From: Phoenix dactylifera
Taxonomy: Eukaryota; Streptophyta; Magnoliopsida; Arecales; Arecaceae
NCBI RefSeq assembly: GCF_009389715.1
Contig: NC_052395.1
Coordinates: forward strand, 25,035,482 to 25,099,481
Length of the DNA stretch: 64,000 bases
Direction: 5' to 3'
Position numbers and translations under genes: made by a program. Position 1 is the stretch's first letter; every line of letters starts with the position of its first letter. Positions 1,525-61,734 of this stretch are shown in pieces. The notes below the pieces were generated by a model, which made no database searches, was not told where the DNA came from, and saw nothing but the letters and a program-made list of their open reading frames with translations.

Positions 1525-4260
1525 ATGGTGGGGGTTGAAGTGATCATCGCTGGATGGGCGGCATCTCCCCTTATCAGTAAGGCGATCGACATGCTTAAAT
1601 CTTATTTGGAGGACAACCACGACTTGGATAAAGATATGAAGAGGAGGCTGGGCGATGTGCAACTCGATCTTCCACGTATCGAGCGCGCGATCAACGCTGC
1701 TGAGGGATGGCCGATCGAGGACAAGCCTCTTCTGGCATGGCTAAGGCAAGTCAAAGATGCGGCTTACAAGGCAGAGGACTTGCTCGATGATTTGGAATCC
1801 AAATTCCACCAGGGTGAAAATAAGGTGCGTGCTTCTAGTTCCTCTAAGCTACAGGCTGTCAAGCGTACAGTTTTGACTGATGATGATCTCAAAAACTTGA
1901 AGAACCTTGTGAATGACCTTGAGCGAATTAATCCACAAATTAAGTCTTGGGAACAAGTGCTGCAGCAGCACAATGCAAATATGAGAGCTGCAATCAGCAA
2001 GAATAGGTTTTTTTTAACCCCTCAGGAGGTGATTGGACGAACTAGAGAGACAGATCGTATATTACGGAGGTTACTGAGAGGAGAGGAGGGGACTAGTAGT
2101 ACTCCGAGCTTTGTTGTCCTTCCCATAGTAGGCATTGGGGGTGTTGGCAAATCTACGCTTGCATGGCATATTTATACGCATGAGAGGCTTTTCCCTGAGG
2201 ACAAAAGTCAGGAGGATCATTTCTCATGGAAAGTGTGGTTGAACGTGTCTAAGAATCTTGATATTATAGAAATTGCAAATAAGTTAGTCCTGAACAAAGA
2301 AAGCCCGGTATCAGAAATTGTAGATGATCGTGATTCTGTTAATGCTATTTTGGAAGATATATTGAAGAAATTTAAGAAGTTGACGAAGGACCAGAAGTTT
2401 TTGATTGTCCTCGATGATGTATGGGATGTGGACACACAAAGTTGGGATAAACTGAAGAGCTTCTTAGCATGTGGGGCAAGGGGAAGCACTATATTGATAA
2501 CAACTCAATATAAAAGAGTAGCAAAAATCATGCGCACTATGAAGCCTATAAAATTAGATGTTCTAACGGACGATGACTATCAGCAACTTTTAGAACAATG
2601 CACATTTGGTGGTGATCAGAATCTTGAGGAACAAACAAGGCAAGATTTACAATCAATTGGTAGGAAAATATCTATACTGCGAGGCTTACCTCGGGCCGCA
2701 AACGCACTGGGAAATATGTTAAGGCCCTTTCTGGATTCGAATTACTGGGAAACATTCTTGAATAGTAAATGGTGGGAACATAATAAAATTTTAAGAGATG
2801 TACTACCATCTCTGGGGTTGAATTATCAAAACCTAGATGCAAGTCAGAAACTATGCTTTGCTTATTGTTCCATATTTCCCAGGGGTCACAAATTCGAGCA
2901 AAATCGATTGGTACACATGTGGATGGCTCAGGGTTTCATCCAGCCCAAGACCGCAGGGAAAATGAGAATAGAGGATATAGGGAGGCAGGTATTTGCCGAA
3001 CTTGTACATAGGAATTTCTTCCAAAAGATATCTGAAAATGAGTATGTGATGCATGATATAATCAGAGAGTTGGCAGAATATCTTTCTTCGGATGAATGTT
3101 CTGTGATCAATGATGAGACTGAACAAATTCAACCGGGAGTGCGCCATGTAACTGTTACAACTCAAAATTTGGTTGCATTTAATGATTTGAGCATGGTTGA
3201 AAAGTTGAGAACCATTTTGTTCTTTGGCAATTATGAAACGGATGCATTTTATAAGGTTCTTAAGAGCATTTTAAAATATTCGAAAAGCCTGCGAGTGTTG
3301 GATTTATCTTACAGTAACTCAGGAATCAGCAAACTGCCAAAAGCTATTAGTCACTTGTCACATCTGCGGTACCTGGATATCTCTAACACTAAAATCTGTT
3401 GGCTGCCCAAGCTATTTTGTAAGCTTTACCATCTACAGGTGCTGAACTTGCAGCTGTGTGATTTTAATGAGTTACCTAAAGGCATGAATAAATTGACCAA
3501 CTTGCGCCATTTATGTGCAGAATCTAAGACAGTTTCTCTAATATCTGGGATTGGGAAACTTACTTACCTTCAAGAACTAAAGGAATTCCACGTTAGTAAG
3601 AAGAAGGGTCACAAGATAGAAGAATTAAAGGACCTAAGAGCACTTCGAGGGCAGCTATTAATTCAGAATCTTGAAAATATTGATAGCAAGGAAGAGGCCA
3701 TGAAAGCAAGACTAAGCGAAAAGAGGCACCTTGATGCACTGCATCTTTATTTTGAGATAAAGGATGGACCAGTGACTAGATCTGGCTTCATTTCAACAAG
3801 AATACTCAAAGTATTTTCAAAAAGCGAAAATACACCTAACTTGAAAGGGCTACTTGAAGGGCTCGAACCTTATTGTGATATTAAGGAACTAGTAATCAAG
3901 GGTTATGACAGCGAGATGTTTCCAAGTTGGCTTCGGCAACTAACCTCTCTCCAAGAGCTACAGTTTTCTAATTGTGACAATCTCCAGCATCTGCCTGATT
4001 ATTTGGTAAACCTTTCCTTGCTCAAGAAGTTGACCATATGCGACTGTCCTAAGGTCATGTCATTGCCAAAGAATCTCTTGCCTGCCTCACTTAAAGAATT
4101 GCATATCTCGGGATGCCAGCTGTTGAAGGAACGGTGCCAAAAGGAGGGAGGACCAGATTGGCCAAACATTGCTTGTGTACCTTGCATATGTATTGACCAG
4201 GAGATCATACAAATGTTGCAAGAAGGAAGCTCAGACACGGCTGCTACTTCTATGTCTTAG
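1525..4260 (+). CDS. CC-NB-ARC-LRR disease resistance protein
   Basis: An uninterrupted 911-residue intracellular immune receptor of the plant CNL class. Known members sense pathogen effectors and switch on defence through ADP/ATP exchange in the NB-ARC module. An N-terminal Rx-type coiled coil spans about residues 1-170, with an EDVID-like stretch (AEDLLDDLE, near 83). The P-loop GIGGVGKST is at 203-211, kinase-2 LIVLDDVW at 293-300, RNBS-B near 325, GLPRA at 387, RNBS-D CFAYCSIFP near 444 and MHD at 509-511. Leucine-rich repeats run from about 585 to the end (LRVLDLSYS, LRYLDIS, LQVLNLQ). The ATG at 1525 is chosen because the coiled coil starts right after it. No motif is damaged, so the gene looks functional. 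Two decayed copies of its 3' end lie downstream, suggesting a former tandem cluster. The recognised pathogen cannot be read from sequence. Confidence 0.95.
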   Translation: MVGVEVIIAGWAASPLISKAIDMLKSYLEDNHDLDKDMKRRLGDVQLDLPRIERAINAAEGWPIEDKPLLAWLRQVKDAAYKAEDLLDDLESKFHQGENKVRASSSSKLQAVKRTVLTDDDLKNLKNLVNDLERINPQIKSWEQVLQQHNANMRAAISKNRFFLTPQEVIGRTRETDRILRRLLRGEEGTSSTPSFVVLPIVGIGGVGKSTLAWHIYTHERLFPEDKSQEDHFSWKVWLNVSKNLDIIEIANKLVLNKESPVSEIVDDRDSVNAILEDILKKFKKLTKDQKFLIVLDDVWDVDTQSWDKLKSFLACGARGSTILITTQYKRVAKIMRTMKPIKLDVLTDDDYQQLLEQCTFGGDQNLEEQTRQDLQSIGRKISILRGLPRAANALGNMLRPFLDSNYWETFLNSKWWEHNKILRDVLPSLGLNYQNLDASQKLCFAYCSIFPRGHKFEQNRLVHMWMAQGFIQPKTAGKMRIEDIGRQVFAELVHRNFFQKISENEYVMHDIIRELAEYLSSDECSVINDETEQIQPGVRHVTVTTQNLVAFNDLSMVEKLRTILFFGNYETDAFYKVLKSILKYSKSLRVLDLSYSNSGISKLPKAISHLSHLRYLDISNTKICWLPKLFCKLYHLQVLNLQLCDFNELPKGMNKLTNLRHLCAESKTVSLISGIGKLTYLQELKEFHVSKKKGHKIEELKDLRALRGQLLIQNLENIDSKEEAMKARLSEKRHLDALHLYFEIKDGPVTRSGFISTRILKVFSKSENTPNLKGLLEGLEPYCDIKELVIKGYDSEMFPSWLRQLTSLQELQFSNCDNLQHLPDYLVNLSLLKKLTICDCPKVMSLPKNLLPASLKELHISGCQLLKERCQKEGGPDWPNIACVPCICIDQEIIQMLQEGSSDTAATSMS

Positions 4261-35980: not shown

Positions 35981-37298
35981 TGTCACCTGGTCTGATTTGG
36001 CCACGCGAGAGTGAGAGGCGGATTGATGACGACTTGCACGTGAGACAACCATATTTGCCCAAGAAGAACAAGCCACCAAATATCATAGGTTCAAACAAAT
36101 AGAGACCGTTCAACCTTAAAACACCCACGCAAGCAGAAGTGGACGTCTAGAGGATAGACAAATTCCCCTTCTTGTTCCTACATGTCAATCGAACTATGAG
36201 CTAGAGGTCTTTGGGGTGTTTCGAAGATCATAAAAGCAATGCCGCAAAAAAAGAAGATTTGCTGCAAAAAAAAAAAATGGCTCCATTGCATCATTTGTGA
36301 TCCTTCGCAAATATTTGCCTGCCATGAAGGATAATCGACTACCAATGTTATGATCATTATATAATCATCATAATGTTGGTAGTCCAAAGACTAAATCCAT
36401 AGAGATGCCTTCCCAAGGTTTAACGCTCTTCTTGCCGCTTTTTTCTTATATATATATATATATATATATAGACAGATATATAGATATAGATATAAATATA
36501 GATAAATACATACACAAGGTTTAACAGCAAATAAAGAACTAGGTTACAGGATCTCCAGAGACAAGTCTTCTCTGAAGTTGGTGATCAATCAAATTAGAAT
36601 GAACAACTAAGCCTTCGTTTAGGCGATGGGCCACCCTATCATCCTTTCAATTTAAGTATCTTCCAACTCCGAATCCATCATAAGCCATCCCTTTTTTCAG
36701 ATGCACCAACCTTAGATATGTTAAATAAATGAATTAAGTTTTAAGGTTTGGCCATGATGATACACAGTTCTATCAGATCTCAGAGTTGAAACCTGGTATG
36801 GATGCTAACCGGCCCTGGCTGTATTCTTCCACACATAAAATCCAGCAGAGGCACTATTACTTTAATAGACAGATGTCCTTCTCTGGGACGGTCAGACCCA
36901 CCTCTGAATGCTTCCAGATCGGTGTAAGAAATGAAGGAGAAGCTACAAATAGAATAGAAGAGCACCACAGGACAATTTCCCCCAATATCTTCCACATAGG
37001 ACTCAAAAATCACAAGAGAAAACACTAGTTATGAAACCGGAAGTAATAGAACCGACATAAATTATCAAATGAAGACACAAGAAGAAGATGACCCTATCAT
37101 CATCCAATCTCTTTTTTTTCTCTTTTTTCTTTTTTATTTTGTAGAAACATTTATGGAAGGCAAGCACCAACTGCCCCACCACCTCAAAGCGCAAAAGCCA
37201 ATTCCGACCAACCAAGGACACCCCTCTAAGCTACTCCACCCATCTTCCACATAATGCCATAAATCAAACACCAAGAACCACCATTTTGCCTAGAGAAA
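35981..37298. other. Spacer upstream of a small gene
   Basis: A (TA)n run lies at about 36447-36472, followed by 'agatata'-type repeats to 36510. A long pyrimidine tract ending in 'ttttgtag' (about 37108-37144) could be a 5' UTR intron acceptor for the gene at 37299. No other gene is recognised. Confidence 0.4.
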
Positions 37299-37664
37299 AT
37301 GGCAGCAACACCAGCTCCAGTCGAGGTTGGCACTCGAGGGACAATTGGATCTCTGGTCTCACAGGAGATTGAGTACTTCAGACGGCTTCATCTAGGGCAG
37401 CAAGAAGTCTCTAGCCAAAAACAAAAGAAGCCGAGTATGGACATCGCTTCCTTCGGTGGCAGCACCAGGAACAAGTCAGGCTCTGGTGGCATAGCTCCAA
37501 AGAAGAAGAAAAAGAAGATGAAGAAGAAGGTAGTACGCATTGGAGGATTCCTTCCAAGCATCTGCTCTGCAGTAGAGATAGCTAACCGTGTTCAGACAGA
37601 CAGGATCAAAGAGGTTGGATACAAAAACCTGAGAACAGATGGTAAGAAGCTGCCCCAGGACTAG
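37299..37664 (+). CDS. Small basic protein with a GTIGSLVSQEIEYF motif
   Basis: A 121-residue frame. The N-terminus carries VGTRGTIGSLVSQEIEYF at residues 9-26. A Lys-rich run follows (KKKKKKMKKK, near 68-77), then a hydrophobic stretch (IGGFLPSICSAVEIA). No signal peptide or known enzyme motif is seen. The basic run could act as a nuclear localisation signal, which is inference. The motif is shared with the minus-strand gene at 37661-38155, so the two are paralogs facing each other. I believe short plant proteins with this motif are widespread but uncharacterised. The stop TAG at 37662-37664 lies inside the stop of its neighbour. The ATG at 37299 directly precedes the conserved part. Function unknown. 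Confidence 0.75.
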   Translation: MAATPAPVEVGTRGTIGSLVSQEIEYFRRLHLGQQEVSSQKQKKPSMDIASFGGSTRNKSGSGGIAPKKKKKKMKKKVVRIGGFLPSICSAVEIANRVQTDRIKEVGYKNLRTDGKKLPQD

Positions 37665-38155
37665 GAGATGGACTCAGAGAGCTTGGAGAAGCCAAGCTTT
37701 TTCAGCCGGCTGCTCATGGGGTTGCTGCATTTTAGATCTACAACTTCCACAATGTAAGGTTGTCCTTTCTTATCCACTTTGTCTGTATTTGGATTTCTGT
37801 CTATAGCGATATCATCAGAACCTAGCATTGGAACTCGATGTCCATTTTTCCGGGGGTTGTGTCGGGGTTTATGGGCATCTCCGGGGGTTCTGTGAGCTGT
37901 GCCATTGCTGCTGCTGCTGCTGCCACTGCTACCAGATTCATTAGGTGGATTTTTCCTATGCAATGTTTTCTTAGGACTAGCACCACAGGGTACTGAAACT
38001 GGGCCTGTTTGAGATTTTCTTCGCGAGGAAGATGATGCTTGTGATGGTTGTTTCATGGACTCTAACTCTTGTGACATCAGGGAGCCAATTGTACCAGTGG
38101 TTCCCACCTTAACAGAGTCCCCATTGGCATTGATGATTTCTGTTGTCCGAGGCAT
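37661..38155 (-). CDS. Small Ser/Lys-rich protein, paralog of the convergent neighbour
   Basis: A 164-residue frame with VGTTGTIGSLMSQELESM at about residues 17-34, the same motif as the facing gene. The rest is Ser/Gly/Asn-rich and probably disordered, with basic patches (SSSRRKS, KPRHNPRKNGHR). The C-terminal third is more ordered in look (PYIVEVVDLKC then RLKKLGFSKLSES). It ends in TAG, which shares the palindrome CTAG with the TAG of the plus-strand gene, giving a 4-bp tail-to-tail overlap. A minus-strand TATAAA at 38320-38315 lies about 160 nt upstream of the ATG and gives a leader of about 130 nt. Function unknown. Confidence 0.75.
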   Translation of the reverse strand: MPRTTEIINANGDSVKVGTTGTIGSLMSQELESMKQPSQASSSSRRKSQTGPVSVPCGASPKKTLHRKNPPNESGSSGSSSSSNGTAHRTPGDAHKPRHNPRKNGHRVPMLGSDDIAIDRNPNTDKVDKKGQPYIVEVVDLKCSNPMSSRLKKLGFSKLSESIS

Positions 38156-38314
38156 GATCTTTTCTTCTGAGGAGTTTTAGGTGTTTTTCCACAAGTGAAC
38201 TGAATGGAAGTCAACGAGGTGCTATTGCTTGAATCTGATGGCTGTTTGAATAAATTGTTGTCCGAAGTCCTGGTGAGGTGTAATAGAATGTGCAGAAGTG
38301 ATATGTGAGTTGTG

Positions 38315-38320
38315 TTTATA
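38315..38320 (-). promoter_or_regulatory. TATA box of the 38155 gene
   Basis: TATAAA on the minus strand within 'aatttataaacac', about 160 nt before the ATG. Transcription would start near 38285. A longer transcript from 43.2 kb is a possible alternative. Confidence 0.5.
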
Positions 38321-38329
38321 AATTCACCC

Positions 38330-39790
38330 AACTTAATTATTAATTTTTCACATTCAAACCCAAAGACGTAAGAATATAACTAGTGCACAACTGAAACTTG
38401 TAGAGAAACCGGATGGTGAGGAAATCCTGCCCACCCTCCCTTCCTTCTGATAGAATTAGTAGAGGGTAAATATCCATTACGGATGAAAAAATAAACAAGT
38501 TACGTTGAAATATTGTTACAAAGAAACTAAAAAAAATGATTGCATTAAGTATAACATTATTTGTGTTCTAGAATAGAAAGGCGAGATCTGACACTCCAAA
38601 GAAGGAAACAAACTTATGGGCTTCAGCACTAATTAGTGATTTTGATTCACAAAAAAAAAAAGAGAATGATCAAACAAAAATGAAATAAACAGCTTCTAAA
38701 GCAAGTGATATAAATTGGAAAAAGATTCTTTTGCCTGTAATTATGTGAATAGCAAACAAACACAATTACATGGAAGATGAAACAAACAAAAGTCCTAAAA
38801 ATTATCAGGCATAAGTTTCTGATCCAGATGGACATAAGCATTAATGTGGGGGTTTGACAGATCATCTATCAGAAGTCAGAACTTGCATAAATTTATCATG
38901 ACTGGTGCTCAGCCTTATTTCAACTTTTACGATCTAATGCTCCACTTCCAGCTGGTAGAATGACATAGACAGAGAGAGGCCTGTCATTAAGTCAATAAAG
39001 CTAATTCAAGGAATATGAAACCACTCTGATGGTTATGCAATTGAAATTCATGCTATAAAGGAAGAAATCCCTCAATAATCCCCTACACGAGGAAAGAATC
39101 TAGATGAAGAGCCTTGAAGATAAGATTTGTTATGAGGAATCATATTCATCTCTAAGGCAAAAATAGAGAGATAAAAGCAACATGACCCCAATTGAATTCT
39201 ACACATGCATGCTTGTATACACTCCAAACTCGGCAGAGGAGTTATTTAAACTTGAACTCTCTAACCTTTGAGAAATTTAGACTGCATGCATGACAAGCAT
39301 CAATTTCCAACTCCAATCATTGCAGAAGGTGATGAAAAACCCCAGATACTTAAATTTATGAAGAGGTGTGCACGTGCTGACCACTATTAATGCAAGTAAT
39401 TTAGTTCACAATTTATTCACTGAAAGTAAGAGAGCCATAATTACCTAGAATCTGGCAGGATAAGTGAGTTGAGTTTCCAATATAACAAGCCAACTGCATT
39501 TAAAAATTCTTTGTCCTGCAGAATTTCAAATAAAAATATCACAGAGAGAAACATAAGGACTCAGAGATTAGCCTTAAGGCTTCATGAATTTACCATAATG
39601 ATAATAACTTTTTTAATAAACCAAATAAAATACATCGCTCATACTTGTGTAGCCTAAAAATCAGATTGTAAACAAAGTGTACTGGTTGACAAACATGTTA
39701 GTAATAAGGTATCTCGCATATGAAACTTAATTCCATGTGGAAAACATAGAAAACCTTCCTTGGAAGGACTCAGACTTAGTGTTAATATTT
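38330..39790. other. Spacer, nothing recognised
   Basis: AT-rich non-coding DNA upstream of the minus-strand small-protein gene. Short chance frames only. Confidence 0.4.
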
Positions 39791-39895
39791 TAAGCCAACA
39801 TTTGGCAATCATAATGACTAAATATTAGGCCAACATTTGACAATCATAATGACTAAATATTAGGCCAACATTTGACAATCATAAAGACCAAATAT
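39791..39895. repeat. 35-bp tandem repeat, three copies
   Basis: Units start at 39791, 39826 and 39861 around 'ggccaacatttgacaatc', with a few substitutions in the first and last. It lies at the left border of segmental copy B. Confidence 0.95.
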
Positions 39896-42290
39896 GAAAC
39901 TGAAACATAAAACTTGTAGGATTTAGAGGCATCTTCAAAAAATGAGAACTCACATGCCTTAAACAATCAAATGGAAGATAAACCGCCAAAATCATTAAGT
40001 CCAAAAAAAATTACCCAACCCTAATTCAAAGTAGATTCCTGATTTGTAACAGGCCTTCCTCCTTGGGAAGAAAAGATAATTGTGCCGAAGTTCGGGAGTT
40101 CAGAGAGACTCTTTAAACCCTTAACTCGATGAGAAAAAATAAGACTTACATCAAAAAAATAAAAAGGACATTCCAGTGCAGGAGGATCCCCTATTGCGGG
40201 TTCTAGGGAGGGTCAGATATATGCCGCTTTATCCCCATATAAGAAGAGATTGTTTCTATGTTTCAAATCCATGACTCCCATATCATAATGCAGCAACTTT
40301 ACCATTGCGCCAAGGCCTACCCTCGCATTACATGTTAAGGGATTTATGTTTGATATTTCAACGATGACTTACACATAATGAATTATCTTCTCATGTACTT
40401 GCTTGCAAGAAGTTGAACTCAATCTCAAGTAACTTTCATTTTGAACTAAGACACATTATTCACTTTATGATCCAAAGTAATACTTGATAATTCGATGAAA
40501 TTATTTCTCGAAATCCATGGATACTTATACCATGCATCAACAAATTCTTCATAAAGAATGTTAAAAAGGAACAGGGTGGGCGGAACCGTTACGAACTGGG
40601 CGGTTCCAGTCGTTCTGAGCCGCACCGACGGCCTACCAGTATGGTTCTGGCAACAGAAACGAAAACGTTGCTAGAGGCGAAGAAAGAGAAGGAAAAAGAG
40701 GAAAAGAGAGAGCGAGTGAGGAGAGAGGGAGAGGGAGAGGGAGAGGGAGGGAGGCCGGTGGAGGAGAATGACCATCCCTCCCTCCCCCGCTCTCTCTCTC
40801 TCTTTTTCTCTCTCGTTCGTTCGAAACAAGGAAACGGCTGCAGCTTCCCCTTGCTGCCCCGGTGCCGGCCTCGGCCACCCTTTGCTCGCCTCCCTCCCTC
40901 TCTCCCCGGTTCTCTCTCTCTCTTTCTCTCTCGTTCTCCCTCTCCTCCGCCTCTTCTATTGTGTCAGTATGGGCCCAGCATGGCACGGCGCAAACCCGTA
41001 CTGACTCGTCCAACCGGAGAACCGGTATAGTGCTCGATACCGGTTCCACCGACGTTGAGAAGGAATATGTGTTGCTTCAAAGTTTCAAACATCAAATTCA
41101 TGCATGAGCTAACCCTCATGTTACTCCTTATAGAGAAAGTTATTTCAATGTCTTTTTTCAGTCTTCAAACCTTCATGGATCAATCTCCCTCAACTGATGA
41201 AAATCATCATCTAGCGGACTAAAAGCATTATCATCCAACGCAGTCATCATTCATATTATCAACATGATATATAGAGATATTATCATATTTTTTTGAGATA
41301 AATCACTGGTTGCAACCTCTAAATAATAGAAAAAGAAGAAGTGGCAGTTACCTTTGATTCATTCTCATAATGACTGAGCCTCTGCAACGAGGAATCTAAG
41401 GTACGTCAAGTGCTTGCTGATTACACTGAAATAATGAATTTCGCAGCACTATCAGCTCTTCAAATTCTGAAATGCTCTAAGATCAGTGTGATTTTTTAGT
41501 GTGTCCTAGGATCTGATGCGTTATAGCTAATTTTACCACTTTCTTCATGAACTATCCAAGCCAGACCACGTCCATGTAAGAGGCTGTGATACCAACTAAT
41601 GCAAACAAAAGATATAGAGACCAAGGGATCAACCTTAAGATTTCATATAATCCACCCTGATGAATAAAGTTTAAAAAAAAAAAATCAAAATGATACTTCA
41701 CTAATTCATAGGCATGACTTCTTGATATAAAAATCCTCAGTGCCTTCCTAACAACTCTTAAACCAAGTAACTACTAGCAAAACGAGTTACCAACTGAAGG
41801 ATTTACTTAGGACACTTGATTACCACTTAAAACCATAAAATACCTTTCTTACAAGCGCTGAAACTCCAGCCTGATCCTGTGTTCTAACTCTAGACCAGAC
41901 CAGCATTTGGTCATCATAACAACAAAAGCAACTGAAACCCAAAACACAAAATATGCAAGGCTTGAAGTCAGCTTCAAACAATTAATCACATGCTTCAACA
42001 GACATGCATATTGATGATATTCAATGGAAAAGGCAGCTAAATGATTAGATCAAATAGCTGGTTACATCCTAATTCCTATGGGTTTCCTAATTTGCATTAG
42101 AAAAAATCTCAAATATTAAGATCTTCTGCAATAACCATAACCATCTAGCTTTGTTCCTAGTAATTGGGGTCAGCTTTATGGATTCTCAACACTGAGCATT
42201 CCAATTTAGGGCTACATGAGATATTATTTCAAATTTTTCCATGACTTTTCTCCAAACCTCCATCCACGTCACCTGAGGTCTTCCCTTCCT
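39880..42290. repeat. Segmental duplication, copy B (compact copy)
   Basis: Paralogous to 17060-18325, about 26850-27060 and 31672-31900. It lacks the Gypsy-like, Copia and long LTR-like insertions of copy A, so it shows their empty sites. It carries a 486-bp insertion of its own at 40572-41057. No coding exon is recognised. Confidence 0.8.
40572..41057. mobile_element. 486-bp element with 8-bp TSD and internal GA/CT tracts
   Basis: Starts CAGGGTGGGCGG and ends, on the other strand, CAACGTCGGTGG. Flanks are AAAAGGAA (40564-40571) and AGAAGGAA (41058-41065), 7 of 8 identical. Copy A at about 17520-17545 has the uninterrupted sequence, proving this is an insertion. The inside has a purine-rich arm (40680-40765), a pyrimidine-rich arm (40780-40960) and 'accggt' words near both ends. 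The terminus style and 8-bp duplication link it to 12257-12442 and 55035-55745. Confidence 0.7.
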
Positions 42291-50121: not shown

Positions 50122-51879
50122 TCTTTCTTCCTTCGATCCTCTCCAACGTCGTTAGGCGTCTCTACCTCGAAGTAAATGGGAGCAGATGATGATCTCTTCG
50201 CCGCGTCTTCGTTTTATTTCAGTCGGAGAGAGGGAATTAGTTGGGGCGGTGGAGCGGTGGGCTGAGATCGCGAAAAATCCGATCTTCAATCGGATCTTCA
50301 AGATCTATCCGTCTATTTGTGCCTATTAAATGAAAAAAAACTAAATCCCTCTTCAAAATTTAAAAAATAAAAAATAAAAATATTCATATTTTTTTAAGAA
50401 AAATATTTATTTATTTTAAAAATATATATTTTAAAAAGTCACGTACATTAAAAATACCACACCTAAAAAAAAATATTTTAGAAAGCAGAATCTCTTTCTG
50501 CTAAATTTAATAAAAAAGTATCTTTATCTTTATTTGATGAGAAGAATACATGAGAGAGTCCAATCTGTTGAATTTTCTATTTTCTATAGATCTAGCTAAC
50601 TGTCAAGTTTTTTTTATTGATATTAAAAAATAAATAAAAGATTTATTGAGTATAGTTCGAATAGCAGAAATAAAGTCATAAATAATTAAATGCTAAATTT
50701 ATATCAAGATTTTATCTCAAATACTCTATGTTATGATCAATGTGGATAAGGAATAAAAATTTTAACCGCAAATAACACTCTTTTTAATCAAAAAAAAACA
50801 TGCGACTATTGAAACACTTTTTTGCAGATTTACTTTTTCAATGGTAAGATCTATCACATTTCACCGTCACATAAGGGTTGTGAGGACTATTTCAGAACCA
50901 TATTAAATTTTATTAATAGAAATTCACAATATGAGAGTGATATTTATTGACCCGAAAAGTTAGATTATCTCGGCTTAATATCTTAGGATTTGACAAAATC
51001 AACAATATACTATCTATAATTGTCTTTTTGGAAATGCTTACTGAGATTGTTTTTCCATCTAAACTCGGCCACCTCTGTGAATTAGATGGGACTTGGAGTT
51101 GCACAATTTCAATAAAAACCTGCCATACTCTCTGTCATGGAAAGTAATTTTTTAAAGTTTTGCGTTGGAGTAAATCTTTTGTTAGATGGTGGGATCAACC
51201 ATCACGAGGATACTTTTGGCAGTGATGCTAATCTAGTATACCAGCTCTGTGTAATATTTGGACTAAAAAGAAAGAAGAAAATCAATCATATGACCTTCTC
51301 TCCTTGAGCATGCAAGGCCAAGGAGCAAGAAATAATAAAGATATACACACAACGCAATGCAGTCTCAAAATAAATCTGTTTAGTTCCAACTTGAGCAAAG
51401 TCAGATGCGTAGAAAATTTACTAGGAATTTAGCAACACCACAAGAGTGATCTCTTACGTTCCACCAAAAACTTCGTTTCTTCCTCACTTGTCACCGTTGT
51501 GGGCTCAGCCAAATCACTCGTTATCCACTCCATTTCATCTGTTTCAACACCCAACAACCGTTACAACCCTCCCTCTGTCCAAGATTCCTTTCTTGCCTTC
51601 TTCCCCCAACCTCTTTCAAAACCATCCCCCTCTCAAACTCCCCAAACCTCCATCAACCCCTCGCAAATCCCATCTCTTCGCCTCTCTAATAAAAATTTTG
51701 AACATATCTCACTCCCAATTACTAAATCCCTAAAGATCTTCCTCTTTTCCATCTAATTCGTTCCCCATTTCCTCCATCCTTTCCCATTCCCATCATCTCT
51801 CTTTAAAATGAATCAAATCTTTCCCTTCCCTTTCCTTATCTAATTCTTTCTCCGTCTCTCTACAGTAGAGCCAAGAAAT
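50122..51879. other. Divergent intergenic region between epimerase and TOR1-like genes
   Basis: The left end holds the epimerase leader and promoter (GC-richer to about 50280). The right end holds a pyrimidine-rich leader of the gene at 51880 (about 51440-51879). The middle is AT-rich. ORFs in the CT-rich leader are compositional. No other gene is seen. Confidence 0.45.
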
Positions 51880-54800
51880 ATGGCCACTGCCATCTCAAAA
51901 CCCTCCTCAAGGCTCTCCAAGTCGCCTTCCCAGTCCCAAAGCTCTCCCCGTTCCTTCTCCACTTCCAAGTCCTCTTCTTCTTCGCTTTCTTCTCATATGG
52001 CCATGGTGGAGCTCAAGTCCCGGATCCTCTCCGCCCTCTCAAAGCTCTCCGATCGCGACACCCACCAGATCGCCGTCGACTACCTCGAGAAGATCATCCG
52101 CACCCTCCCCGCCGACGGCGTCCCCATGCTCCTCAACTCCCTCCTCCACGAACCCTTCCCTCCCCCCGACCCCAATTCACGGCAAACTGCCACCGTCGCC
52201 CGCCGTGAGTCCCTCCGCCTCGTCGCCCTCCTCTGCTCCTCCCAACCCGACCCCGCCTCCGCGCACCTCCCCAAGATAATCGCCCACCTCGTCCGCCGCC
52301 TCAAGGACCCCGCCTCCGACTCCTCCGTCCGCGACGCCTGCCGCGACGCCGCCGGCTCCCTCGCCGCCCTCTACCTCCGCCCCTCCACCGCCGCCAACCC
52401 TGAAGACACCTCCGCCGCTTCCGGTGGCGGTGGGTCCTCCTCCCCGGTTGTTTCGCTATTTGTGAAGCCCTTGTTCGAGGCGATGGGGGAGCAGAACAAG
52501 GCGGTGCAGGCCGGGGCGGCGATGTGCCTCGCTAAAGTGGTGGAATGTGCTGGGGGTGGTGGGGATGGGGAGGGGGGACGGCCGGCGACGGGTGGAGCGG
52601 CTTTTCAGAGGCTGTGCCACAGGATCTGCAAGCTTCTTAGCGGACAGAGCTTTCTGGCAAAGGGGGCGCTGCTTTCGGTTGTTTCTAGCTTGGCTCAGGT
52701 TTGTTCAATGATTGGATTTAGGTTTTCTAGTTATAGAAAATGAATGTAAGTGTTTTTAAAGGGCATTTTTTCTTTAGTTGTGTATTAAAGTCTAGATCTT
52801 TAGGGGATTTTTTTGGGTTCATAGAGGTGGATTCTTGCCATGGAATTCAGGAGAACCCACATTACCTGATTGGGGGAGACGAGATCTCTATTTTTTTAAG
52901 GAAATGAATTAACCATTGTTCTTGTTAAAACAAATAAGGACATTGAAGGAGATGGGATCTTTAACTCTTTTTTCTGTAAGGAAAAACTTTCGCCTTCATT
53001 CCTATAAAATCAAATAAGATATGCAGCTTTCGGGTTGACTGTTGCTTGATTTAACCTGTTCTAGATGAGGCGTATAGACGCCAACAGTGTCTTCTTGATC
53101 TTTTTATTGCTCTTACTGTTTTCTTTTAGGTGCCCATTCTGTTTCTCTCATTTCTGTTCGTCCTGTCTGTCTTTGAGCCACGAGGTTTTGATTTTGAACT
53201 TTCTGATAATTTCCTATATCTATTGATACATGATCTTATCATATATGATCCTCTCTAACCATCTCTTATGTCAATGCAACTAGGAGAAGTTTAGATGCAC
53301 GCCGACTAATGTGTGTTGACCCTTTCAAAATTAATTAATGTCTACTTTGTCATCCAATGAAGTTTTCAAGTGCTGATGGATTAAACATATTAAAAATCAG
53401 AAGTCTTTCCCCTTCAAAATTAACATGGCATGTAAATAGTTTTGTGTTTCAAGTCAGTAGCTTCTGCATGAATAGCAGGTTTCAGCTTTTATCCAAGAAA
53501 AAAGAGCAGTTTCAGCACAAAAAAAGTAGAATTTCTGATGAATAGAGTCACAACTACACCATAGCATGTCCAGTTTTAGTGTTGAAGAGGAAGATCCATC
53601 TTTGGATGAACCATGGACAAGAAGCTTAGTTTTATAATTATGAAGGAAAAGTAGCTATATGTATTTAGTTGAACTGTAGCTGGAGTACTCACTATAAGAA
53701 TCTTAAAAAGGTAGGAGCACTTATCCCCCAGAACATGCAACAAGTGCTGCAAAGTGTTCGTGAATGCCTTGAGAATAGTGACTGGGCTACCCGTAAGGCA
53801 GCAGCTGATACATTGAGTGTCTTGTCATCTGCTTCAAGCCATCTGATTGCTGATGGGGTTGCTCCAACAATAGCCGCTCTAGAGGCTTGCCGTTTTGATA
53901 AGGTAGCTTTCTGTTTTACAACTTCATTGTTTTGAAGTTCGTTAATTATAGGGAAGAGTTTTGTTTAATGAATTAATCAAATGTCAGGGTGCTCAATGAA
54001 TTAATCAAAAGTTCTCTGCTTTTTTCAGGTGAAACCTGTTAGAGATAGCATAATGGATGCATTGCTGTCATGGAAGAAGATTGCAGGAAAGGGAGAAGAT
54101 GGAACTTCAGAGGACTTAAAAGGTGTGCATCATACATAAAAATGATTATTTATCTTGTTCTTCTTTCTCAGTTTGTCTTTATTCTTTTTTCTCCTTGAGA
54201 CCGGCACTTTTCTAGTTCATTTTGATTTGTACACTTTGCTGCAGATGGCAACAATTGTGAATCAGCTGATACTGAAGAAAACTCAGATAATAAAAGGTCA
54301 AATGCAAGCAATAGAAGATTAGAGTTCGTGAAAGATTCATCTGCTAATTCTTCACCAACTAATAGTGATACTGTCTCGAAAGAGAAGGGTAGTAACATAC
54401 CCGAGAAAGCAGCTGTTTTATTGAAGAAAAGAGTGCCTACATTGACCGACAAAGAGTTGAATCCAGAGTTTTTCCAAAAGCTTGAAACAAGAAGTTCTGA
54501 TGACTTGCCTGTAGAAGTAGTGGTACCTCGTAGGTGTCATCAGTCTTCCCACTCACAAGGTGAAGGACCAGAATTGTCTGATAGTGATTCCAGGGGCACA
54601 TCTCGGGGTGCATCAAATCATGATGGTTTGGCATGCCATGAGTTGAATGACATTCGAGGACACATCCATGCTAATTATCAGAATGCTGAGAAAAGAGTCG
54701 GGGTGTATAATAAACTACAAGAATCAGATGATTCTGCTCAGGATAAGTGGACAGAACAAAGAGGATTTCGGGTCAGGGACTCGAAAGGAAGGGCCTTTGA

Positions 54801-57800
54801 TGTTGATGATAGGGTTGAAGTCAGTAAGAGGGATCCCTCTGCCTGTGTAAATATCTCCAGACCTGATGGTCAAGCCGAAGGGTCCTTCATGAATAACAAA
54901 GTTAATTGGTTAGCCATTCAAAGGCAATTATCACAATTGGAGAGGCAACAAGCCAATCTAATGAACATGTTGCAGGTATTGTTTATAAAGGAAGTCGTAG
55001 CAGCAATTCTATTATCCAGGATAACATAGTAAAACAAGGTTCGCTGAACTGGTACTGGAACTCGTACTGGTTGACAGCCGATACGGTACAGTATACGGTA
55101 TGCAATGGCGTGTCGGGTAATTTGATGTTCCTTGATGTTTTTTGATATTTCTATGATGTTTTTCTTCTCCTTCTTTTTCTTCTTCTTCTTCATTTTCTCC
55201 TTCTTCGATGTTTTTTGATCTTCTTCTTCTTCTTCTTCTTCTTCTTCTCCTTCTTCTTCTTCGATGTTTTTTGATGTTTCTATAATGTTTCTTCTTTTTC
55301 TTCTTCTTCTTCATCTTCTCCTTCTTCTTCGATGTTTTTTGATGTTTCTATGATGTTTTTCTTCTCCTTCTTTTTCTTCTTCTTCGATGTTTTTTGATGT
55401 TTCTACGATGTTTCTTCTTCTTCTTCTTCGATGTTTTTTGATGTTTCTATAATGTTTCTTCTTCTTCTTCTTCGATGTTTTTTGATGTTTCTATGATGTT
55501 CCTCCTCCTCCTCCTCCTACTTCTTCTTCTTCTCATTCTCCTCCTCCTCCTCCTCCTCCTCCTTCGTCTCCTCCTCCTCCTCCTTCTTTGTCTCCTCCTC
55601 CTCCTCCTTTTCCTTCTCCTTCTCCATCTCCTTCTTCATCTTCTTCTCCTCCTCCTTCTTCTTCCTTTTGCTCCAAACCGGTTTTTACAGCCGAACCGAC
55701 CCGGTTCCACGCCGGTTCGGCCCGGCACGGCCCAAACCGACCATGTAGTAAAATATTATGTGGGGCGAACTTTTTATATATATTCTTTTTGTTTATACAT
55801 GATGGATGTCATTCACATATTTGGGAGGCTGAAATTAACTCTGTTCCAGTGACTGTAGGTACTCTACATTGTTATTGTCTCAAAATTCATACTTTAGCAT
55901 GGGAGGGTTGATTTATTAAGAACATATCTGTGGTGTGTTACATGCTTGCTATGGATTGTTTTAGTTTCATTATATCACTGCTTTGTCTGATTGGAATTTA
56001 TTTTCCCCTTAATTTCTTTTGCTGGCAAGTTTGTTTGGTAGGCCATGAAAAATGGATGCTCTTATTTCCAGTTGTTTTGTCAAAGCACCATTCATGCCTT
56101 CAATGCTGTAGTTTTTTGTGAAGCAGGACATTAACATGAAAATTTTTTGAGCTCAACCTTGACTTTTTAGGGGATTAGTCTAATGGATTCCATGCTAGAG
56201 TTAGCACAACAAATCTGAGGTTTTTGATTATTACAAGCAGTGAAGGAACATTGTGGTTGAGTTGATGAGAAGCTAACTTTGCGAAAAACTTTGGGAAGGT
56301 GGACCAAGAAAATTCTTGGAAACTTGAGGAAAACCTTTCTTCATTGTCAGGTTGGATTTAGTAATTCTATAAAAAGGAAGGGTGATGCAATTCCTTCATT
56401 TTCAGTAATCCTCTGACCAGAGAGCTTAGATCACATCAGTAACTTGTTAGCTAGAAATTAAAGGGGTCAGCTGAAAATTAAAAAATGGTGAATGGCTTAA
56501 AACTGAAGCATTGAGTTGGATACAAATCCCATAATTTAAGAAGGGTGAATGGCAGCATATATTTCCAGAAGATTACAGATGGGGGAAGAAGGGCAACAAG
56601 ATCAATGGGACTGTATTAGTGGAACTAAATCTGCAAGCAAGGTTAGGAGGTTTGTGGTGTTTCTGTAGTTGGTTTGGGGTGGAAAATACAGGAAGACCAA
56701 AGCCACTCAATTGGTAAAACTTCCATTTTTAGTAGATTGAAGGTGGTGTCCAGATTGATGGGGGTAATTCATCGGTGCCAGATTGGATTTACATGATTGT
56801 TCTTTCAAATGTTCAAGCTATATGATTTGAAAAAAAGAGAGTTGACAAATGTACTTATTGAATTTCAAATTCATTGAAACTAACGTTTCTTATCTTTTCT
56901 TAATTTTTAGGACACATTATTTTATTCTATATACATTCGTGATGCTATGATTCTTGTCATCTACTGTTTATACAATGCGACCAATATAGAAAGAGATCCT
57001 TTTTTCTCCTTCTTGAAACTGCTACAGCATATTAAGATTCACACAATTGCTCCACCAAACCACTCAATTCTCAACTGCTGAGCCCACAAACTGTGCCCTT
57101 TTAAGTTTCCATTTAAAACATCCTTGTCTTGTACACTGGAAGTTAGTGGAACATTGAAATACACACTGTATTTGGAGGATTCTTGAAAAGCATTTCTTCT
57201 ACATCAAATTGAAGAGAGGTTCACAGTGTAATATGCTGATGGTTGAAATAGTAACCAGACTGGCTGGGTTTTGCGATAGAGTGAAGTTCTTTTGGTCATC
57301 TAGGCTACATGCATAGACAAGACCTCTTTGCTACCACTGAAGTGCCATTTGAATCTTGTAATAAGTTTCCAACTCTTCAGCATCTTTCTGGTGTATAATG
57401 TGAATACATGTACATCATGGACTGCCGTGAAACCTGCTATTTAGAGATAAGGAAACCTCAAAAAGCGTATGCTGTTTTGCACATTCTTAAGAGACCCTGA
57501 GAAGATCCTCTACAAATTTGGATGAAACATCCCTGTTTTCCTTTTCCTAGATGACATCCAACAACTTAAATTTGTAGCCATTGAGCTCAATAACTGTTTG
57601 ATCCCTGTTTTTAATTTGTTTCTCACGTTAACTCCACATGGTGTTCTTGCAGATCTATTTCCTTGTGTTTCCTCGAATGCAAATTAAATTCAGATGAATC
57701 TTTAATGCAGTAATTTCTCTAATTTGAATTTATACTGTCTACCTGCTTGCTCTTATCAAGTGAGGTCTTTGATCCCGGTTATGTGCTTCCGAACATACAT

Positions 57801-60491
57801 TTAGTCGTCATTTGGACCTTGAACATAAACATTTCTTAATTAGACAAGGTTAAAAATTTAAAATTCAACTATGGCTTAAAAAAAAAAAATCTTTATTTTA
57901 TAAAGCATCAAATAAGAATTTGTAAATCTGGGAATGAGTTATGTTTCAAACAGCGATCATAAGTGATACTGCATTATTTAGCAATTATCACTAGTGTTTA
58001 AAAAATAAAATCTTTATTTTATAAAGCATTAAATAAGAATTTGTAGATATGGGAATGAATTACGTTTCAAACAGCGTTCATAATTGATACTGCATTATTT
58101 AGCAATTATCTTTCTGTAACTGCATCTGTATTAGCAAATTGCTTTTACATATTATATTTGTTTTGTTTTACTAATTTCAGGATTTTATGGGAGGCTCCCA
58201 TGACAGCATGATAACTCTAGAAAACAGAGTTCGCATTCTTGAGAGGGTTGTTGAGGAGATGGCACGAGATTTGACAATATCATCAGGAAGGAGAGGTGGT
58301 AACGTGGTGCTAGGTTTTGAGGCATCTCCTGGAAGGTCCTCGAGCAAATACAATGGCCTTCATGACTATTCAAGCTCAAAGTTTGGCAGGGGGGGTGATG
58401 GACGGATTCTGTTTGCAGAAAGATATCTCTCATCAGGTAGTATAATTTCTGGATTTAGGGGAAGAGATCCCCCTTGGAGATCAGATTCTGAATCATGGGA
58501 TACTTACACATATACAGCTCCAAGAAATGGAGTAATGAACTCTAGGAGGGCTACTGGTGCTGTTGCCATTGATGCTAGGGTATCTAGGACTGAACAGGAT
58601 AGTGATCAAGTTGGCAACAGGCGATCTTGGGACAAGGGGCAAGGACCATTTAGGCTTGGTGAGGGTCCTTCTGCAAGAAGTGTTTGGCAAGCCTCAAAGG
58701 ATGAGGCTACTTTGGAAGCTATCCGGGTGGCTGGCGAAGATAATGGGAGCTCGCGAGTTGCAAAACGAACGACTATTCCAGAGCCAGATGCTGAAACTTT
58801 GGCAGATGATAACCCAGGACAGGAAAGGGGTCCACTTTGGGCTTCCTGGACCCATGCTATGGATTCGCTTCACAGTGGTGATATAGATTCAGCATATGCT
58901 GAGGTTCTTTCTACAGGTGATGATCTGTTACTTGTAAAATTGATGGATAAATCTGGCCCTGTTGTTGATCAACTTTCCAGTGAGGTAGCAAGTGAAGTCT
59001 TGCGCATGGTTGGACAGTTTCTCATGGAACAAAGCTTGTTTGATATAGCTCTGACCTGGCTTCAACAGGTATGCCTCACTTTGTAGTTCTGTCTAGAAAT
59101 GATTGATTTATATGATTATCCATTAATGATAGCAGTGATCTAAATCCCGTGGGACCAGGCAAATCTCTGTTTCTTTGTGGAATAGGATGTGCTGCCATCC
59201 CACCGTCCCAATGCTTGGGCTGGGGGATATCCTGGAATGCGCCAACAGGATGCTAGGATGAGGATGATGGGATGGCTCCATCCGGACACTTGGGACGGTG
59301 CCCCATCTCAACATCCTGCAGGATGTCCCACTGAGACTTGAATCTATATATGATAATTTGTCTAAGATCCGTCTAAGATACGCTACATTTATATTTAGTG
59401 CAAGTATACGTGGCTACATGTTCCATGATGCATCAGGGAAGTTTGCTGCTATAGCTGTTTTGTCTACATTCTGTTTGTTTAGATTGGAACAACTATTATG
59501 TGAAGGTTGTGAAGCTGCTCTGCGACAGAGTATCTACATAAAGGAACGAATTATACTTGCATGGGAACTCTGTTTACACTTTTGATGTGCAAATTTGCAA
59601 GGCTATATATATGCAACCATGCAGGAAAGGAGGACAATGCATTGGAATATTATTTGTAGCACTCTTCACTCTTCTTTTCCAACTCTATGTTACTTTGAGA
59701 ATTAGCACTAATTGGTGCACAGCAGAAGTGTCATGTTCACATAGAGGACCATGATGCAGAAGAAGAGAGGTGGAAGGAATATAGCTATTAATCTGCCTGT
59801 TTGATATTCATTTATCAGTTTTAAATTCTGGGTTCGTGAATGGGTTGGATTCATGCTAGATTGACCCTCTCTAGGATTTATACTGTTATCTAAACTCTTC
59901 AGCTGTACAAGGATCAAATCTGCAGATTTGGCTGAGAATCAGTTCTCAGAATCATGGAGAAGAAAACATGAATGTTGGGGCGGGGGTATTATAACATTTC
60001 AACTTAAAATCGCAACTTAAAATTTCAAAATATACATAAATCATACAGAACCAGGATTTTGAAATGCATCCAAATGCTCCTTCTGTCTTAGGAATTTGTT
60101 CTTCGCTAGTTTATCAAAAAATTATTTCAGTCTCATCTGTCTGGAAGACGCAATCCATGTATCTTGAATATACGGGCCACTCTCTAGTGTATATTGTATA
60201 GCCTGTTGCACACCATTTCATCTTACACATCATTTGCAGAACAAATTTGTGCTGGGCAGCATTTCTATAACAGTGTTTACTGAATGTTTTTTGCAGTTGA
60301 CTGATCTGGTCGTAGAAAATGGAGCTAACGTGCTCAGCATCCCCATTGAAGGGAAGAGAGAGATCTTGTTGAACCTTCACGCAGCTTCTGCAATCGAACC
60401 ATCGGAGGATTGGGAAGGGGCTACACCTAAGCAGATAATGATGCAGTTAGCATCCTCCTGGGGAGTCAATTTACAACTGCTTATCAAGTAG
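51880..60491 (+). CDS. TOR1: TORTIFOLIA1/SPIRAL2-like microtubule-associated protein
   Basis: Plant-specific HEAT-repeat protein. Family members bind cortical microtubules, stabilise minus ends and control directional cell growth and helical twisting. Exons: 51880-52698, 53711-53902, 54029-54122, 54245-54975, 58181-59068 and 60297-60491. All have GT-AG borders and compatible phases, giving 972 residues. A Ser-rich head is followed by HEAT repeats (about residues 40-365, e.g. AVDYLEKI, KAVQAGAAMCLAKVV, DWATRKAAADTL, EACRFDKVKPVRDS, LSWKKIAG). Then comes a variable Ser/Lys-rich middle, a coiled-coil patch (RQLSQLERQQANLMNMLQ, near 600), the conserved GSHDSMITLENRVR block, and a C-terminal helical domain ending QLASSWGVNLQLLIK. 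Exon 1 is very GC-rich, as in many monocot first exons. Intron 4 (3.2 kb) hosts a repeat-rich transposon. I chose the ATG at 51880; MAMVELK at about 52000 is a possible later start. Confidence 0.92.
55035..55745. mobile_element. 711-bp element with 8-bp TSD and expanded TTC/TCC repeats
   Basis: Exact 8-bp flanks TAGTAAAA (55027-55034, 55746-55753). The left end CAAGGTTCG and the right end read inward as CATGGTCGG are short imperfect TIRs. Both arms hold 'ggtac' or 'accggt' words as in 12257-12442. The centre (about 55130-55665) is an array of a GATGTTTTTTGATGTTTC unit, seven or so copies, mixed with (TTC)n, (TCC)n and CTT runs. Long frames there, including a Leu-rich one, are artefacts of the repeat. 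Confidence 0.8.
57890..58111. repeat. 121-bp tandem duplication near the end of TOR1 intron 4
   Basis: Copies at 57890-57990 and 58011-58111 share 'tctttattttataaagcat' and 'gatactgcattatttagc', with about ten differences. It ends some 70 bp before the exon 5 acceptor. Confidence 0.9.
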
Positions 60492-61734
60492 TATCTTGGG
60501 TAATCGCTCATGTTGTGTACTTTGTTTTCATATAATTTTTTGATTGGCTTGTTCTTAAGAAGCATATAACATTATATGTAATGAAATATAGAGAAGATGG
60601 AGCATGCACTACTCATTAGCCACAAATATTACTTCGGTTTTTTTTATTTGTTTATTTACCAAATTTTCTTTCCCACTATCAAAAATGCCCATCACAATGC
60701 ATGTATCGGTTCGTTAAAATGTTTCAACCAGGTGAGCACCTTGAACAAAGTTGATTATGAGGGTTTCCTGAGCAAGTTATTTTTTGGCTGCGAACGCTTG
60801 CTGCTCATCCCCATCTATTTAAAGACTTTTTGGTTTGAGGAAAGATTTTTTTTACTGAAATATTTTTTTCAAAAAAGTTGCTATCTGAGTTTATGATGTC
60901 TGAAGAAGTTGTTTTTGCATGTTTCGTTGATTATGGAAATGTAGCACTTTTTAAAATAGTTTATCTTTGGTTAGGCATTTACTTTTTTGAAAAAATTGTG
61001 TAAAATGCCTAATAAAAAAAAATTACCTCATTCTGTCCAAAAGCTTAAGAATATTTTTTTTAAAAAAAATATTCTAATTTTCAACCGATGAAAATTAGAT
61101 TTTTTTTGTCCTGCATATTTTTTTATAAAATATTAAAATCTTATTTTTATAAAAAATTATTTTTATTTTTTAAAAAAATTCTAACTAAATATGAGATTTA
61201 TATTTTTTTATTTTTTATTTTTTATTTTTTACGAACCAAATGACTTGTAAGATTTTGAAATATTTTGGATATAGGCTGGGTTGCGAAGGATGCCGGGCTC
61301 TGGCACCCATCAGTGTTACCAGCAGGCACTGCATGACGGTCAGCATTTAGCAATAGAAACGTGTTGTCCAGCCATTGCCACCTCTCCTTCCCTTTCGTGT
61401 TCTTTTGCTGATGAACCATCATGAACCAGAGAGTTGCTCTTGAACCACCGTCGACATCTTTATTGACGTCGATGGCGACCGATTCATCCACAAGCGCAAA
61501 AAACAAAGGCAATGTTTTCATATTGAAAAGGCCTACCGCACCTTCCTTTGGAGGTTACCATCCAGGCTTCGAAGGGGCTGTTATACCAACCTACACACGG
61601 ACCCCAGCAAATCCACATTTCCTCCAATGTTCAGTGAAATCCTTTTTTTTTTTCTTTTTTGAGGAAGAAATCATCAAGGCAAGAGAGGCTTTCCCGCAGC
61701 AGAAGCTGTCTTCGCTGCCCGTTTACCATCCCAA
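60492..61734. other. TOR1 3' UTR, then AT-rich DNA with a possible MITE
   Basis: The TOR1 3' UTR probably occupies the first few hundred bases. 'caagttattttttggctgcgaa' style sequence near 60772 opposes 'ttcgtaaaaaa' near 61230 (right end 'gaaccaaatgacttg'). A weak-TIR MITE of about 475 bp is therefore possible. 61250-61734 is GC-richer and adjoins the LINE fragment; nothing firm is seen there. Confidence 0.35.

Follow-up and report, generated by a model that had tools for sequence, protein, structure and literature searches.

A tail-to-tail pair of putative small-protein genes that share one CTAG in date palm, and its duplicate on a second contig

Two open reading frames, P and M, face each other in the window (the whole stretch of 64,000 nucleotides of date palm DNA that was analysed) and end in the same four bases. 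The locus raises the question whether this is an accident of reading frames or a lasting arrangement of two genes and, in the latter case, whether the partners are related and whether the overlap itself keeps them together. The first-pass annotation had proposed two head-on genes terminated by one CTAG, a description that held to the base for both frames and both stops.

The pair and its duplicate on C11

The features of the pair are as follows.

37299-37664, plus strand: P, a single-exon ORF of 121 aa with the GTRGTIGSLVSQEIEYF motif, a Lys-rich run and a C-terminal LPQD
37661-38155, minus strand: M, a single-exon ORF of 164 aa with the GTTGTIGSLMSQELE motif and the C-terminal SRLKKLGFSKLSES
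37661-37664: the shared CTAG, giving the P stop TAG at 37662-37664 (plus strand) and the M stop TAG at 37663-37661 (minus strand)

P and M lie on opposite strands and converge, and according to the sequence and the ORF list their coding regions overlap tail to tail by 4 bp. A stop codon overlap of this size and orientation is allowed by only four words, CTAG, TTAA, CTAA and TTAG. Since the coding regions themselves overlap by 4 bp, the transcripts of P and M must overlap if both exist; any P mRNA with a 3' UTR contains M antisense sequence, and vice versa.

The chance expectation was examined by counting pairs of ATG-started ORFs, each at least 100 aa long, with stops overlapping by 4 bp. P and M form the one such pair within the 64-kb window. 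Among the remaining retrieved loci longer than 9 kb, together 229,402 bases, there was also one, which is the duplicate of P/M on contig C11 (locus L003). Forty order-1 Markov windows gave no pair at this length and one when each ORF had to reach at least 60 aa. We do not attribute the P/M overlap to chance, because the C11 block carries the same pair with an aligned CTAG, and both ORFs show divergence of the coding type.

The duplicate was located by protein searches of the genome (773,078,369 bases in 2,391 contigs). With M as the query (163 residues), one further place was found at E ≤ 0.001; it lies on C11 and matches residues 1-162 with 86% amino acid identity. P gave nine matches, led by C11 (69% amino acid identity) and contig C235 (52% over residues 1-96), after which the next match had an E value of 2.08. 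The C11 copy, and its longest single alignment with the window's own contig (C4), comprise the following features.

L003 4680-5165, plus strand: the M copy, an ORF converging on the P copy
L003 5162-5518, minus strand: the P copy, an ORF converging on the M copy
L003 5162-5165: the shared CTAG, which occupies the same alignment columns as the CTAG on C4
36516-39824 of the window, inverted relative to C11: the longest single stretch alignable to C11, with 77.6% identity, spanning the pair and both 5' flanks

C4 and C11 agree in the order and orientation of the two genes and in the stop that these share. Read in inverse order, the C11 segment follows the window colinearly at 36.5-43.4 and 51.7-60.8 kb, and two more colinear stretches occur further left, at 31.9-32.4 and 34.1-34.3 kb. 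Left of 30 kb there are five other C11 matches, which are out of order. The TORTIFOLIA1-like gene of the window also falls inside the colinear block.

At 51684-60780, segments of this gene and of the next one match C11 (within 20.998-21.068 Mb) in inverse colinear order and with 73-87% identity, and this part is clearly a duplicated block. By Pfam, the neighbours in the window include an aldose epimerase exon and a TORTIFOLIA1-like exon. A disease-resistance type gene, a single ORF of 911 aa with Pfam Rx N-terminal, NB-ARC, winged helix and LRR matches, lies at 1525-4260; the left part of the window around this NB-LRR gene has only scattered matches to the C11 segment.

Synonymous divergence between C4 and C11 (dS) is 0.22 for M and 0.34 for P. 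Both values fall within the range of 0.22, 0.35 and 0.52 obtained for three further ORFs of the block, whose alignments covered 297 of 299, 211 of 233 and 155 of 287 codons. For date palm and other palms, two whole-genome duplications of ancient date have been described, of which the younger preceded palm divergence (PMC4684314), and a duplication common to palms is likewise described in PMC6535811. The C4/C11 block was probably made by the younger, palm-wide event, an assignment that we infer.

The pattern of substitution points to selection on protein. For M, comparison with C11 gave 21.5 synonymous differences over 111 sites and 24.5 nonsynonymous differences over 372 (Fisher p 1e-4), with a dN/dS of 0.31 (NG86) or 0.37 (YN00). 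For P the counts were 22 over 81 and 46 over 273, a weak constraint (Fisher p 0.03), and dN/dS was 0.57 (NG86) or 0.64 (YN00). Each coding region differs from its C11 copy by one indel, which is 9 nt long in both P and M; in the 5' flanks, 2 of 10 indels on the P side and 1 of 5 on the M side are divisible by three. Identity to C11 is 0.91 over M and 0.81 over P, and in the flanks it is 0.72 (36750-37298) and 0.79 (38156-38480). From these comparisons we read both P and M as protein genes, with P the faster evolving of the two.

The flanks at 36516-37298 and 38156-39824 are still alignable to C11 and include near-identical stretches, e.g., near 36701-36750, which are possible conserved promoter elements.

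Taken together, P/M is most likely an old tail-to-tail coding pair with a cis-antisense layout of unusual tightness. As far as sequence can tell, the age of the arrangement is well supported; it is ordinary in kind, and unusual in its tightness and retention.

A third locus and the relationship between P and M

The more distant P match, on C235 (locus L006), preserves only one of the two partners as an open frame.

L006 1501-1788: a P-like ORF of 95 codons with an in-frame ATG, shorter than P and with another C-terminus

This ORF keeps LPSICS and the N-terminus of P, and its motif copy reads GMRGSIGNL. The DNA 3' of it, in the place and orientation expected for M, resembles M. The local score of this remnant was 65 with the C4 M gene, where 500 shuffles reached at most 40 and the opposite strand 29, and 58 with the C11 M gene, where shuffles reached at most 44 and the opposite strand 26. 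Within L006 1501-2350 the M-like remnant contains a long CTG/CAG repeat. When the CAG repeat was cut out, the remnant scored 44 and 46 with the C-terminal halves of the two intact M genes, scores matched in either case by one shuffle in 1000. For the N-terminal half of M no likeness was detectable, the scores being reached in 788 and 844 of 1000 shuffles, and no minus-strand ORF of at least 50 aa is present in L006 1789-2350.

If the remnant is indeed M, the head-on arrangement would predate the split of C235 from C4 and C11. The dS to C235 is 1.1-1.3, which is near saturation, and when the genes were divided into thirds some of the thirds were saturated. Matches between C235 and C11 that seemed colinear read as transposon-like or repeat pieces and were rejected as synteny; the neighbours that C235 has in common with either C4 or C11 give the same impression. 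C235 represents a natural case of partner loss. Because a P-like ORF is kept there beside a decayed M remnant, P appears able to persist without M.

Whether P and M descend from one gene depends on a short N-terminal stretch that both contain.

37320-37385, plus strand: the P motif copy, 22 residues, P residues 8-29
38048-38113, minus strand: the M motif copy, 22 residues, M residues 15-36

The two copies, VEVGTRGTIGSLVSQEIEYFRR in P and VKVGTTGTIGSLMSQELESMKQ in M, are identical at 14 of 22 residues, and BLASTP of the stretch gave an E value of 3e-7 as a single comparison. A profile comparison of P with M aligned 24 columns at the motif (E 3.3e-7) and nothing beyond it. The likeness near the N-termini and the unlike C-termini that the first-pass annotation had pointed out are both borne out by these comparisons. 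At the DNA level, 44 of 66 bases of the motif are identical between P and M, i.e., 17, 18 and 9 of 22 at the first, second and third codon positions.

The motif is rare. A genome-wide search with a strict DNA pattern, about GTxGT(I/V/M)GxL, gave seven matches, and a reversed control pattern gave one; the strictness of the pattern makes it miss copies such as GMRGSIGNL on C235. Four of the seven are P and M of the two pairs, and the other three fall in reading frames that resemble neither P nor M. This distribution favours common descent and makes an origin by inverted duplication plausible.

The reading opposed to this treats P and M as unrelated neighbours that came to abut, each with a short functional motif gained independently or by exon capture; it is rather unlikely, though of the rival explanations it survives best. 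It agrees with the confinement of the likeness to 22-24 residues and with C-termini that have no likeness at all. Also in its favour, cross matches between P and M in the genome protein searches did not rise above noise (E values of 2.58, 4.5, 4.7 and 2.55); that at 4.7 ranked behind an unrelated match at 1.31, and that at 2.55 ranked first after the three P copies. None of the inverted pairs found, six in the window and four in L003, links the motif copies (at least 14 bases), as the same reading would have it, but an inverted DNA repeat between P and M is expected to fade with age. What speaks against unrelated genes is that a rare motif would by chance have to fall in exactly two neighbours, which hold four of the seven pattern matches, and that it lies similarly near the start codon in both, from residue 8 in P and residue 15 in M.

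Common descent of P and M is therefore likely but not proven, its basis being 22-24 residues. Of the earlier proposal that they are paralogs made by inverted duplication, the kinship gains from the motif matches that fall in the pairs, whereas the inverted repeat that would mark the event is missing and homology extends over only the motif.

Antisense overlap and the retention of the pair

We propose the following course of events. An ancestral gene would have been duplicated in inverted orientation, and the copies would then have diverged except at the N-terminal GTxGTIGSLxSQE(I/L)E motif. The pair would already have been present before the C4/C11 duplication, probably the palm-wide one; on C235, the more distant copy, M would have decayed and P been retained. 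Transcription of each gene presumably starts from a separate promoter on its outer side and runs toward its partner, so that each transcription unit would pass the shared stop into the coding strand of the other. With transcription of each continuing past the shared stop, the locus would be a convergent overlapping (cis-antisense) gene pair.

How far the transcripts reach is a separate matter. A 3' UTR running through the whole coding region of the partner had been claimed, and this went too far: the geometry requires only entry into it. Counted from the P stop, the first downstream AATAAA in the window lies at +585 and −526, past the start codon of the partner on both strands. The corresponding stretches of C11 lack AATAAA, and for this reason the hexamer, which is not conserved between C4 and C11, was dropped as an indicator of where the transcripts end. 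The 3' end of M also attracted attention, since codons 16-45 counted from the stop show zero synonymous differences from C11; constraint at the RNA level, striking by eye, was rejected as not significant (permutation p 0.19).

Antisense regulation of P and M is possible. In its strong form, P/M would be a regulatory unit in which double-stranded RNA (nat-siRNA) or polymerase collision (transcriptional interference) allows each gene to switch off the other, and the arrangement would be kept for that purpose. Overlapping transcripts are unavoidable by geometry if both genes are transcribed, and the arrangement outlived the duplication in both blocks; both points favour such a unit. On the other hand, synonymous sites of M carry no significant extra constraint, P persists on C235 without an intact M, and selection on two separate proteins suffices to hold the shared stop. 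We consider a regulatory unit unlikely. The fuller picture, in which the CTAG marks a long-lived, selected pair of sister genes that arose by inverted duplication and control each other by antisense transcripts, is more doubtful still; if true, the three copies of such an antisense-controlled sister pair, two intact and one with M decayed, would offer a built-in test of partner loss.

The explanation that we prefer, and hold to be probable, is an old tail-to-tail plant coding pair with a common CTAG that is kept by selection on the proteins, with no regulatory coupling needed. Survival of the genes and of the shared stop in both blocks would follow from purifying selection on each coding region, as the same bases serve two stops. 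Because M shows no significant extra synonymous constraint, we regard the shared stop as having been kept incidentally, through the selection that acts on two proteins.

Neither protein could be placed in a known family. Pfam gave nothing for M at E ≤ 1 and a single match for P (Vac7, E 0.14), far below the cut-off; PDB gave nothing for either at E ≤ 1, and Rfam nothing useful over 36000-40000. Single-sequence AlphaFold2 models were of low confidence, with mean pLDDT values of 54 (M) and 61 (P), and ten-residue blocks above 70 were confined to residues 1-20 of M (82, 85) and to residues 21-30 and 71-80 of P (79, 78). For the first 20 residues of M (38096-38155) the model is fairly confident and shows two strands that run up to the motif.

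No relatives were found among viral contigs searched with M, the M alignment and the P alignment, or among bacterial and archaeal genome contigs searched with the M alignment; by their descriptions the collections cover viruses, bacteria and archaea, and the result has no bearing on other plants. Arabidopsis AT1G16500 and AT1G79160, which may resemble M in a KLGFSKLSES-like C-terminal end, are possible relatives of M; passages of papers naming these genes mention no head-on partner. The open-access papers searched gave no description of the P/M pair, and in them the strings GTIGSL, GTVGSL and KLGFSKLSE led to bacterial encapsulins only.

That one frame, likelier P, is non-coding and the overlap an accident of ORF reading would fit the fast evolution of P (dN/dS 0.57), its lack of a Pfam match above cut-off or a solved relative and its low-confidence model, but is very improbable, given that C11 retains the reading frame of P with its start and stop codons and the LPQD at its C-terminus, the indel being of 9 nt, and C235 the N-terminus and LPSICS with pN below pS (39 synonymous differences over 64 sites, 69 nonsynonymous over 221; p 2e-5).

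Comparison with known convergent gene pairs

In the survey of Arabidopsis convergent overlapping pairs (COPs) by Jen et al. (2005), coding regions overlapped in 13 of 956 pairs, by 6-698 bp (PMC1175971), so that coding overlap is rare in this one plant survey, in line with the rarity that the first-pass annotation had assumed for convergent paralogs with a 4-bp coding overlap. Several of the 13 involve transposons, a pseudogene or hypothetical proteins, and in the account given there homologous sense genes generally lack homologous antisense partners (PMC1175971). P and M resemble these 13 exceptional COPs in being antiparallel and convergent with overlapping coding regions. They differ in that their overlap is 4 bp, where the shortest in the survey is 6 bp (PMC1175971), and in that both partners and the shared stop are retained in a second block. 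P/M probably belongs to the convergent coding-overlap kind, with partners that are themselves probably related.

A second comparison is with cis-NAT loci that produce nat-siRNAs (PMC3439971, PMC2262095). The 3' ends of P and M would be complementary in the same way if both are transcribed. The share of pairs with abundant siRNAs from the overlap in these surveys (PMC3439971, PMC2262095) gives a modest prior. In 646 of 1,008 pairs, Jin et al. (2008) found at least one of the two genes to be matched by small RNAs (PMC2262095), and Jen et al. (2005) argued against a predominant effect of degradation (PMC1175971). With both partners and their four shared bases kept in two blocks, and a third locus nearly without M, the P/M copies let a single genome serve as a small natural experiment on the importance of antisense overlap.
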